From Balneolaceae bacterium (GTDB taxonomy: Bacteria; Bacteroidota; Rhodothermia; Balneolales; Balneolaceae), in contig JAGYJQ010000001.1 in NCBI GenBank assembly GCA_018401935.1, positions 186,001 through 250,000 of the forward strand: DNA of 64,000 nucleotides. The letters are read 5' to 3'. Below are positions 44,954-49,110 of the stretch, piece after piece. Position numbers and translations under genes: made by a program. The notes beneath the pieces are model-generated. The model did not search any database. It saw only the letters and a list, made by a program, of their open reading frames with translations, and was not told the origin of the DNA. Position 1 is the stretch's first letter; each line of letters begins with the position of its first letter.

Positions 44954-46171
44954 ATGAAAATATTAGTTATTAATTGTGGTAGTTCATCCATAAAATACCA
45001 ACTCATTAACACGAAGGAGAAAAAAACTCTATGTAAGGGTTTGGTTGAGAGGATTGGAGCGGTTACGTCTATCATTCGGCACGAATTTGCCGATGAAAAA
45101 CCCGTAAAAAAATCTGTCGCTTTAGAAAATCACTCTGCGGCTCTATCCAAAATCATGGAATTACTCATGGAGGCTGATAATGAGCATTTGCATGATATAA
45201 ATGAAATTGAAGCGGTGGGCCACAGAGTTGTTCATGGAGGCGAACTCTTTAAAGATTCCGTACTTATAGATGAGGATGTAGAATCGGCCATTGAGCAAGC
45301 TTTTGATATAGCACCACTGCACAATCCACCAAACTTACAGGGGATTAGAGCGGCGAAAAAACTTTTACCAAACGTTCCACATGTTGCTGTTTTTGACACG
45401 GCCTTTCATCATTCCATACCACAACATGCGTACTTATATGCTATCCCAAATCGGCTTTACCGCCGGTACAAAATACGTCGTTACGGATTTCATGGCACCT
45501 CACATTATTATGTTTCTAGAGAATACTTTAATGTTTTAGGGAAAAAGAAGCTAGGTTCAAAATTAATCACCTGTCATTTGGGTAATGGCGGGTCCATAAC
45601 AGCCATTAAAGATGGGAATTCATATGATACGTCTATGGGTTTTACCCCATTAGAAGGGTTGGTAATGGGAACCAGATGTGGAGATATAGATCCATCCATT
45701 TTGTTTTTTTTAATTGAAAAAGAAGAATTATCTCTTGCCAACGTACACGCATTGCTCAATAAGCATAGTGGATTACTCGGATTAAGTGGTTATGCGGGCG
45801 ATATGCGAGATCTATTGGAAGAAGCGGAGCAAGGAGATCGCAGGTGTACCGAAGCAGTGGAGGTGTTTTGTTACAGAGCCAAAAAATACATAGGCTCATA
45901 TATGGCTGCTTTGAATGGAGGAGATGCGTTAATATTTACTGGTGGGATTGGTGAAAATTCAGCCATTATTCGACAAAAAATCGTAGAAAATCTAAGTTAT
46001 TTGGGCTTGGAATTAGATGACCAGAAAAATGAGCAAGCACAAGGCTTTTCGGCGATTCATGCGAAAGACTCTAAAGTAGAAATCTATGTAATTCCAACAA
46101 ATGAAGAGTTGGTGATTGCTATTGATGCTGCAAAGATAGCGATTGCCTCTCAACATACTCCATGGGCATAA
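44954..46171 (+). CDS. ackA: Acetate kinase
   Basis: AckA interconverts acetyl phosphate plus ADP with acetate plus ATP. Family motifs are VINCGSSSIKYQLI at the start, GHRVVHGGE, FDTAFHHSIP, RRYGFHGTSHYYVS, HLGNGGSITAI, TRCGDIDPS and FTGGIGENS. At 405 residues it is full length. It is separated from pta by a lipoprotein gene that overlaps its last 10 bases, an unusual insertion in the ackA-pta pair. Confidence 0.96.
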   Translation: MKILVINCGSSSIKYQLINTKEKKTLCKGLVERIGAVTSIIRHEFADEKPVKKSVALENHSAALSKIMELLMEADNEHLHDINEIEAVGHRVVHGGELFKDSVLIDEDVESAIEQAFDIAPLHNPPNLQGIRAAKKLLPNVPHVAVFDTAFHHSIPQHAYLYAIPNRLYRRYKIRRYGFHGTSHYYVSREYFNVLGKKKLGSKLITCHLGNGGSITAIKDGNSYDTSMGFTPLEGLVMGTRCGDIDPSILFFLIEKEELSLANVHALLNKHSGLLGLSGYAGDMRDLLEEAEQGDRRCTEAVEVFCYRAKKYIGSYMAALNGGDALIFTGGIGENSAIIRQKIVENLSYLGLELDDQKNEQAQGFSAIHAKDSKVEIYVIPTNEELVIAIDAAKIAIASQHTPWA

Positions 46172-47910
46172 CGAAGACTTCATATATGTTGCTATGGTTA
46201 GGTATAGTTCTTTGCCTTAGCGCTTGTACTAGTTCTAAGTGGACTATCGAATCGAGCCAGTCTATTGATCGCACAGAATTTGATTTAGTAAAAGAAGATG
46301 TTTTTCTGGAAATCAGTCAAGTACCTAATCCTAACCGGCCGGTCTTGGTTTTTGATGTATGGAATATAGAGACCTATGATTACTCCCTAAAAATTCAGAG
46401 TAATAGATACTTGCAACGCTATCGACCTTCATTAAGTGCGGCTTTTTTTGGTGTTTTAGGGGCCACTGCTGCTTATCTAACCGCGGATATATTGTCGCCT
46501 AATAGCACCGAACAATATATAATGTATGGTTTGGGTGCACTAAGCCTGGTTACCGGTTTATCGGGGGATAGAAATTGGGGGGAAGCTATTTCTACGGGTG
46601 AACAAAGGCTGTTGAAGCAAACCGGCGTTATACAGTTAAGCGATACTCTTAGAGCAACAAAAGAGCCAACTGTATCACCAAGCTACACCATATACAATGA
46701 CCTTGAAGCAATTGCTATACGAAACAATGTAACCTTCGATAAGAATAGCTATTACATAAACTTATTAGAAGATATTAATCCCAGTAATTTTTTGGTTCAG
46801 GAAAATCAAAGTATACGAGTTGAGCTTGAATTTAACGATAGCCTATATTCTCAAACAATCCCTGTGGGAAATATATTTGAGCGTTTTGTAGTGGTTGAGA
46901 CAGAGGTTACTGCTCTGCGGCAAAACCCAGATAATACCAATAATTCCATCTTAACCGATTTGGCTCGGGGCAGTGAATTGCTATTGCTAGGTGAATTGGA
47001 CAACTGGTACGTGGTGCGTTATGGGATTACTGAAACCTATGTCTCAAAAAATGATTCTAAGTTAATTTGGCGTCCGACTGATTATATCGATGAGTTATCC
47101 ATTATTACACTGCCAAATGTACCCTTTGGGAATGTAGATGTAGAAAGAGAGATACCTATACGTTTGACGGAAAATAACCAGGCAGCTGCCTTTATTTTAA
47201 GTAATGAATATTATGGGGATAAGTTCCCAAATAAGCGCTATGCCGAACGTGATGCGAAGCTCCTAGAAGAGTATCTAATCAATAGTTTTGGCTTGGGATT
47301 TGCGGGTATTAGAACGTCGATTAATACGTCTAGAATAGAGCAGTTCAGATACAATTGGGAAGAATTTTTGAAACGAAACAAAGGAAATAAAAAACAGTTT
47401 ATATTATATGTAAACGGTTATGTCACAGTGGATAAAATGGGAAGCCTTATTTATTTATTAGGTGATGATGCTTCAGCCAATCGACAAAGAAATAGCATAG
47501 TGTTTGCTGATTTATTCCAAGAGGCAATAGATGCGGGCTTTACCGAATTTTTTATGATAGGGGATTTCTTTTTTGATACAGGAAATCAGGAATATCCCGT
47601 TTCTAGGGCTAATTATTACGATGCTTTCTATGCCCTCAATTCGACATTATTAGCTAATAGAAACATTGACTTCGGATTACTTTTTTCTTCTGATGGTAGA
47701 AGCGATTCGCAGTTATACACCAAGCAGGCCCTTGCGCAAAAATATCACAGTATATTCAGTTATTACATAGCTGATGCGATAAAAAAAGGGAATTATACCT
47801 CCATTCAATTGCTCAATTATGTTCAAAGGAATGTGGATTATACCGCGCGAAGACTGCATGACACTCCACAAAATGTTGTATATTTTAGTAATGCAACTAT
47901 TGAGTTCTAA
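46162..47910 (+). CDS. Caspase-like pseudoenzyme lipoprotein with SH3-like domain
   Basis: A lipobox LSAC near residue 22 follows a signal peptide. A region with two hydrophobic segments (about 93-110, 120-135) comes next, then an SH3b-like domain (VETEVTALRQNP to TETYVSKND, about 246-297). Residues about 330-480 fit the caspase/C14 p20 pattern: AAAFILSNEYYGDKFPNKRY, ERDAKLLEEYLINSFGL, FILYVNGYV, LLGDDA, and FFMIGDFFFDTG. The catalytic GHG reads NGY and the DAC/FSG cysteine site reads GDFFFDTG, so both His and Cys are missing. It is probably an envelope scaffold or sensor, not a protease. It overlaps ackA by 10 bases. The family call is by eye. Confidence 0.6.
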   Translation: MGITKTSYMLLWLGIVLCLSACTSSKWTIESSQSIDRTEFDLVKEDVFLEISQVPNPNRPVLVFDVWNIETYDYSLKIQSNRYLQRYRPSLSAAFFGVLGATAAYLTADILSPNSTEQYIMYGLGALSLVTGLSGDRNWGEAISTGEQRLLKQTGVIQLSDTLRATKEPTVSPSYTIYNDLEAIAIRNNVTFDKNSYYINLLEDINPSNFLVQENQSIRVELEFNDSLYSQTIPVGNIFERFVVVETEVTALRQNPDNTNNSILTDLARGSELLLLGELDNWYVVRYGITETYVSKNDSKLIWRPTDYIDELSIITLPNVPFGNVDVEREIPIRLTENNQAAAFILSNEYYGDKFPNKRYAERDAKLLEEYLINSFGLGFAGIRTSINTSRIEQFRYNWEEFLKRNKGNKKQFILYVNGYVTVDKMGSLIYLLGDDASANRQRNSIVFADLFQEAIDAGFTEFFMIGDFFFDTGNQEYPVSRANYYDAFYALNSTLLANRNIDFGLLFSSDGRSDSQLYTKQALAQKYHSIFSYYIADAIKKGNYTSIQLLNYVQRNVDYTARRLHDTPQNVVYFSNATIEF

Positions 47911-47931: not shown

Positions 47932-48072
47932 GTTTCTCTAAGTTTTTTTACGGCTACTGAATGTGTTTTTAAAGCTACTGACCAACAAGAAGAAATCCAT
48001 GAACCTCAATTAGTTCATGTACCTCAAATACACCGCGAAACCCACCCAAATAATCTGGATAAATAATTAGGT

Positions 48073-49110
48073 ATGAATTTCACCGAGTTGCTACGCGTTA
48101 AGGCAAAAGGCAGTCAATCAAAGATAGTATTAGCCCGATCCTCAGATCCAAGAGTACAACAAGCGGCAAATACACTCGTGGAACTAGAAATAGGAGAGGT
48201 CTATTTGCTTCGGAATCGTAGTGAGGGGGCGCTTAATTCTGTGGATGGTACCGAAGTAGATAATGATCGAATGGCGGTTGAATTAACCCGAGGGAATGAT
48301 GCGTCGATTGAGCTAAACTCAAAAATTCATTGGATTGATCCGTGGGAAGATTCACGTCGAGAAGAATTCGCAGACTTTCTTTATGAGAAAAGAAAAAACA
48401 AGGGATGGAGTCGGGAACATTGCGAGGAAGCCATCCTAGACCCCCTTTATTTCACAGGTTGTTTATTAGCGATGGGATATATGGATATTGGAGTCGCGGG
48501 TTCTGTTTCTACTACGGGTGAGGTCCTGCGTGCGGCCATTCATACCATAGGACTTAGACCTGGTTCAACTACCATTTCGAGTAGTTTTATCATGGAATTA
48601 CCTTCTGGGAAGGTAGTGAGTTTTGGAGACTGCGCCGTAATTCCTATGCCAGATGCACAACAATTAGCGACTATCGCATATGATACAGCAAAGGTCTACC
48701 AATCACTAAGCGGTGTAGAACCTAAGATCGCATTGTTGTCATTTTCTACTAATGGTAGTGCAGAGCATGAACGTGTACAAGTTGTCAGAGATGCACTACG
48801 CATATACAAAGAACAAGGTAATGGCTATGAAATAGATGGGGAGTTACAGTTTGATGCAGCTTGGGATGTCGCTGTCGCTCGTCGCAAAGCTCCGGATAGT
48901 AAGGTGGCTGGGCAAGCTAATGTCTTTGTATTTCCTAGTTTAGAGGCCGGCAACATAGGCTATAAAATGGTAGAGAGGCTGGCAGGGGCCAGAGCAACTG
49001 GGCCGATTATTCAGGGGTTAAACAAACCCATGTTGGATCTTTCAAGAGGCTGTGATGCCGATGATATAGTAAATACCGCATGTGTGGGTATATTAATGAC
49101 AAAAAACTGA
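48073..49110 (+). CDS. pta: Phosphate acetyltransferase (Pta-type)
   Basis: Pta converts acetyl-CoA plus phosphate to acetyl phosphate and works with AckA. The 345 residues carry the catalytic-domain blocks VAGSVSTTGEVLRAAIHTIGL, SSSFIMELPSGKVVSFGDCAVIPMPDAQQLA, ALLSFSTNGSA and VFPSLEAGNIGYKMVERLAGARATGPIIQGL. It has the short form without the DRTGG regulatory domain of long Pta. The close phosphate butyryltransferase alternative is unlikely near ackA. It stops 4 bases before the manA ATG. Confidence 0.93.
   Translation: MNFTELLRVKAKGSQSKIVLARSSDPRVQQAANTLVELEIGEVYLLRNRSEGALNSVDGTEVDNDRMAVELTRGNDASIELNSKIHWIDPWEDSRREEFADFLYEKRKNKGWSREHCEEAILDPLYFTGCLLAMGYMDIGVAGSVSTTGEVLRAAIHTIGLRPGSTTISSSFIMELPSGKVVSFGDCAVIPMPDAQQLATIAYDTAKVYQSLSGVEPKIALLSFSTNGSAEHERVQVVRDALRIYKEQGNGYEIDGELQFDAAWDVAVARRKAPDSKVAGQANVFVFPSLEAGNIGYKMVERLAGARATGPIIQGLNKPMLDLSRGCDADDIVNTACVGILMTKN

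Follow-up and report, generated by a model that had tools for sequence, protein, structure and literature searches.

The window, by which we mean the whole 64,000-nucleotide stretch of DNA from a Balneolaceae bacterium that was analyzed, carries between ackA and pta a gene whose product we identify as a pseudo-orthocaspase with a predicted lipoprotein signal peptide. The genes and the parts of the protein are as follows (window positions, with the basis of each assignment):

44954..46171, + strand: ackA, the upstream neighbour, overlapping the pseudocaspase gene by 10 bases
46162..47910, + strand: pseudo-orthocaspase lipoprotein gene, 582 aa (open reading frame and translation, orthologs, purifying selection)
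46162..46227, + strand: predicted lipoprotein signal peptide ending in LSAC, with Cys22 (46225-46227) as acceptor (sequence, alignment)
46426..46566, + strand: two moderately hydrophobic Gly/Ala-rich segments, residues ~89-110 and ~117-135 (hydropathy)
46912..47058, + strand: SH3b-like domain, residues ~251-299 (SH3_3 matches of orthologs mapped by alignment)
47134..47907, + strand: caspase-fold (C14) domain without catalytic dyad, residues 325-582 (PF00656 in orthologs, hhalign, Foldseek)
47251..47253, + strand: Asp364, matching S1-pocket Asp95 of TbMCA2 (conservation; roles from PMC6426788)
47419..47421, + strand: Tyr420 at the catalytic His position (alignment with 13 relatives that have His and Cys)
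47563..47565, + strand: Asp468, matching S1-pocket Asp211 of TbMCA2 (invariance; roles from PMC6426788)
47569..47571, + strand: Phe470 at the catalytic Cys position, which is Asp in most relatives (alignment)
48073..49110, + strand: pta, the downstream neighbour, starting 162 bases after the end of the pseudocaspase gene

The overlap with ackA and the place before pta give the gene an operon-like position, as the initial annotation had described. The 162-base gap in front of pta holds a perfect inverted repeat (CATGAACT/AGTTCATG, 47998-48019) that might serve as operator or terminator.

The pseudocaspase gene is present in a single copy in the window genome, and orthologs were found in 42 of 58 related genomes, with E values down to 0. 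Families within the same order are coded f1 to f5 below, f1 being the window's own. Identity to the window protein is 53-87% within the genus and mostly 24-39% elsewhere in the family. For pairs within the genus dN/dS was 0.06-0.19, a range like that of the neighbouring manA, and the gene is therefore under purifying selection and not decaying. Conservation in 42 of the 58 relatives together with these low ratios also means that the open reading frame is real and not a chance occurrence. A defence-system library gave no match to the window protein or to one ortholog, and a literature search for caspases in Balneola returned nothing relevant.

When the window protein alone was used for sequence searches of Pfam, NCBIfam and PDB the results were weak or empty; against PF00656 it reached E 0.083 and 13 bits, with the cut-off at 21.4. 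Because the window copy by itself scores so weakly, its caspase homology is carried by the orthologs, many of which exceed the PF00656 cut-off with alignments spanning almost all of the model, the best at E 1.5e-10. Matches at E<=1 were seen in 17 of 26 family members, and matches over the cut-off in 16 of the 58 relative genomes, most of them being the pseudocaspase gene itself. Absence of a p10 domain is one mark of pseudo-orthocaspases; here the alignment ran through model position 219-225 of 233, with p20 and p10 taken together. The CHAT model (PF12770) matched none of the 26 family members. Searching with a family profile brought up distant relatives from the phylum, in which GHG is paired with DACFSG or DACHSG, and the hhalign comparison of the family with Bacteroidota orthocaspases with an intact dyad gave a probability of 99.8 and E 1.2e-28. 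The 13 intact-dyad relatives used here are labelled as active by their dyad alone.

Structure models were built from five close sequences, the window's and those of four near relatives, and are of low confidence, with a mean pLDDT of 40 for the full protein and 55 for the domain. In both, the order of secondary structure elements is that of a caspase. Among the best 50 Foldseek matches in PDB, all were caspase, MALT1 or metacaspase for the full model (best E 7.6e-7) and 49 were so for the domain model (best E 1.8e-7), the remaining one being an aldolase. The best structural match of these low-confidence models is the human MALT1 paracaspase (PDB 4i1p, 3v4o), although MALT1 is an active protease with unrelated accessory domains and the identity is 12-16%. 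The profile and structure comparisons thus agree with the caspase fold that had been read by eye from the C-terminal half, and we are nearly certain that the gene product is a dead caspase-fold lipoprotein.

The window protein reads V-N-G-Y420-V around the catalytic His position and G-D468-F-F470-F around the catalytic Cys position, which confirms the earlier observation that both catalytic residues are gone; by sequence, the domain cannot cleave by the caspase mechanism. The catalytic Cys was found in none of the 58 pseudo-members, where its place is taken by Asp (42 sequences), Glu (6) and in the remainder by Ser, Phe, Asn, Ile or Met. The window genus is without Asp at this site and has F, I, S or N there. 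The catalytic His is kept only in eight f3 sequences, all of them with Asp at the Cys site, so the expectation that homologs would be empty at both positions held for Cys in all 58 and failed for His in this one related family. As dyads the members have YD (25), HD (8), FD (4), FE (4), YS (4) and others. In a tree from a quick search, with the catalytic columns left out, all pseudo-members fell on one side of a branch with support 97, and one change at the Cys position and two at the His position were counted. Since Cys occurs in no member and His survives only in the H-D sequences of f3, the parsimonious reading is that Cys was lost once and first and His later, with Asp then being lost in the window genus. 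The H-D branch would thereby record which of the two dyad residues went first.

The acidic S1 pocket has largely outlived the dyad. In TbMCA2, Asp95 and Asp211 accept basic side chains, and the acidic pocket is retained in known pseudo-orthocaspases (PMC6426788). Matching by motif (A-x-x-D and D-x-C), and not by superposition, places Asp364 and Asp468 of the window protein at these positions. All 71 sequences have Asp468, 58 of 58 pseudo-members and 13 of 13 with the intact dyad. Asp364 is present in 43 of 44 f1 sequences and in 12 of the 13 intact-dyad relatives, and is lost in branches outside f1, being Ser in f5 and Thr or Val in f3.

In the N-terminal half, the lipobox of the initial annotation stands, as LSAC ends a predicted signal peptide and both Cys22 and Trp27 are invariant in an alignment of 26 orthologs; signal peptide and lipobox Cys together predict a lipoprotein. 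By a general sorting rule, lipoproteins without an acidic residue right after the Cys go to the outer membrane. Cys22 is followed by TSSKW, with no acidic residue in the adjacent position, and therefore an outer-membrane location is likely, as a guess from this rule. The hydrophobic segments noted earlier were recovered as well, in a position conserved in the 26 orthologs, and they are moderately hydrophobic (best 19-residue mean 1.55 in the window copy). The proposed SH3-like domain is supported through the orthologs, seven of 26 having an SH3_3 match (best 4.9e-7) that maps to residues 251-299 of the window protein, which alone gives no score. One ortholog (L014) is over the cut-off (30.3 vs 27) and the others are below it or without a match. 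Against PDB the family profile gave only weak SH3b and OmpA matches.

Pseudo-orthocaspases are defined as caspase p20 homologs in which at least one residue of the dyad has been replaced (PMC6426788), and the window family is such a p20 homolog, with a substituted dyad and an acidic S1 pocket that is kept apart from the loss of Asp364 in f3 and f5. To call a dead caspase fold a novelty goes too far, for pseudo-orthocaspases have been described (PMC6426788, PMC3501461, PMC7889975), but the architecture and the YD and HD dyads found here differ from them. Bacterial examples such as SyOC of Synechocystis, whose loss leads to higher H2O2 tolerance (PMC7889975), share with the window family the substituted His and Cys, a Tyr at the His site and the retained acidic pocket. 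The commonest substitutions are His to Tyr and Cys to Ser (PMC3501461), and YS, YN, YA, YG, FS, HA and QC are common dyads (Klemencic et al. 2019, PMC6426788), whereas the window family combines YD, FD, FE or HD with a lipobox, a putative SH3b domain and order-wide retention. Alphaproteobacteria and Cyanobacteria account for 90% of the described pseudo-orthocaspases and Bacteroidetes for 10 of 1078 sequences, and the group has been tied to photosynthetic bacteria (PMC6426788).

The intact-dyad Bacteroidota orthocaspases (L108-L120) are alike over the domain, which opens with DVE..IP and closes with the Q motif, and also in the H-x-x-F-x-Y motif and the pocket Asp. They differ in having kept GHG and DACFSG, and the four that were scanned have other N-terminal domains (PEGA, CARDB) and no SH3. 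What is new here is thus the order-wide combination of lipoprotein, SH3b and pseudocaspase with an unusual Tyr/Asp site, pseudo-orthocaspases themselves being already known. Balneolales is a non-photosynthetic order. An order-wide lipoprotein clade with one apparent loss of Cys therefore sets the caspase fold apart from both proteolysis and photosynthesis, and it offers a clean system for asking what a binding-only caspase fold does.

A role can be proposed from this architecture, in which one lipoprotein carries, behind its lipid anchor, two weakly hydrophobic segments, an SH3b-like domain and, at the C-terminus, the caspase fold. It probably sits on the periplasmic side of the outer membrane. 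The retained acidic pocket may bind a basic residue in a peptide or in the tail of a protein and leave the chain uncut, the SH3b-like domain and the lipid anchor would place this binding at the cell wall or outer membrane, and the protein could work as a scaffold or a sensor. The mechanism as a whole, a non-cleaving, peptide-binding or scaffolding pseudo-orthocaspase at the envelope, is in our view evenly poised between right and wrong. The alignment speaks against binding through the pocket, as Asp364 is not kept in every branch (f3, f5). The bolder version, an order-wide envelope receptor that reads basic peptide tails at the cell wall or outer membrane and in which Asp or Glu, retained in most branches at the former nucleophile site, provides a new binding chemistry, we consider rather unlikely.

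The position of the gene had suggested a functional coupling to the acetyl-phosphate node, that is, an accessory protein of acetate kinase and phosphotransacetylase that would detect or control acetyl-phosphate by way of its operon partners. The common block order is greA, nudix, c2, ackA, pseudocaspase, EamA transporter, pta and suf genes. The ackA overlap recurs in close relatives, and the synteny is partly upheld: of the 42 genomes that carry the gene, 24 have ackA directly upstream, seven have it elsewhere and 11 lack it or keep a remnant, and 32 have pta close downstream. Eight of the 42, however, keep the pseudocaspase gene with neither ackA nor pta, namely six f3 genomes and two of the window's genus, G006 (98% complete) and G008, where the protein is an intact 582 aa, with dN/dS 0.19 vs 0.22 for manA. 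Conversely, ackA and pta are present in nine f4 genomes that lack the pseudocaspase gene, the two genes being partial in some drafts. Since each occurs without the other, the pseudocaspase is not tied to acetyl-phosphate and a role with ackA and pta is largely refuted; in addition, AckA and Pta are cytosolic and the pseudocaspase is a predicted exported lipoprotein. We give this explanation hardly any chance. At most short ackA and pta remnants flank the intact gene at L033 4674-5001 and 6792-7052 and at L034 4675-4887 and 6846-7079. Where f3 genomes lack ackA and pta (L064, L066, L068), an acetyl-CoA synthetase and an MFS transporter lie on the opposite strand between c2 and the pseudocaspase gene. 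The c2 product is a conserved predicted exported protein of ~415 aa, barrel-like by eye (L071 10922-12169; L075 6950-8200; others), with no Pfam or PDB match. As c2 precedes ackA or the pseudocaspase gene in most Balneolales, and adjoins or lies near the latter even where ackA is gone, the pseudocaspase might be an envelope partner of c2, for instance in its assembly or surface display. This is improbable: c2 is missing from the whole window genus, which keeps the pseudocaspase gene, and the gene is therefore not tied to c2; eight of the nine f4 genomes without the gene also keep c2.

Two further explanations concern the domain itself. The site could have become a new catalytic one, with an acidic D-x-D in place of D-x-C that binds a metal or serves as acid/base for another kind of reaction. 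This would fit the invariant Asp468 and the Cys position, where 48 of 58 members have an Asp or Glu, but that position is Phe, Ile, Ser or Asn in the window genus and no other polar residue is newly conserved beside the site, and we regard this explanation as very unlikely. The non-cleaving envelope protein proposed above can also be set against a regulator that pairs with, and tunes, a caspase homolog active in the same cell. The model for this is FLIP(L), a pseudo-caspase paralog of the human initiator caspases that has a caspase fold without activity (PMC7586951), as the window family has by its residues. FLIP(L) pairs with a caspase paralog, and the window genome has no C14 paralog. Most genomes with the pseudocaspase, the window's included, contain no other PF00656 protein, which makes such a regulator less likely. 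The one candidate partner in the window genome is a CHAT-domain protein, and CHAT belongs to a different clan branch whose pairing with a C14 pseudo-enzyme is unsupported; we judge this explanation unlikely. A C25 search of the window genome gave no match, but neither did its control give a signal. The CHAT protein (L125 1-2553, G000:C2) carries ASHS and NACSSG motifs as well as a hydrophobic segment at its C-terminus; apart from it and the pseudocaspase, no caspase-clan protein was found in the window genome. The genome G301, from the same family, has in addition to the pseudocaspase a C14 paralog in which His and Cys are both intact (L108 1825-3105).
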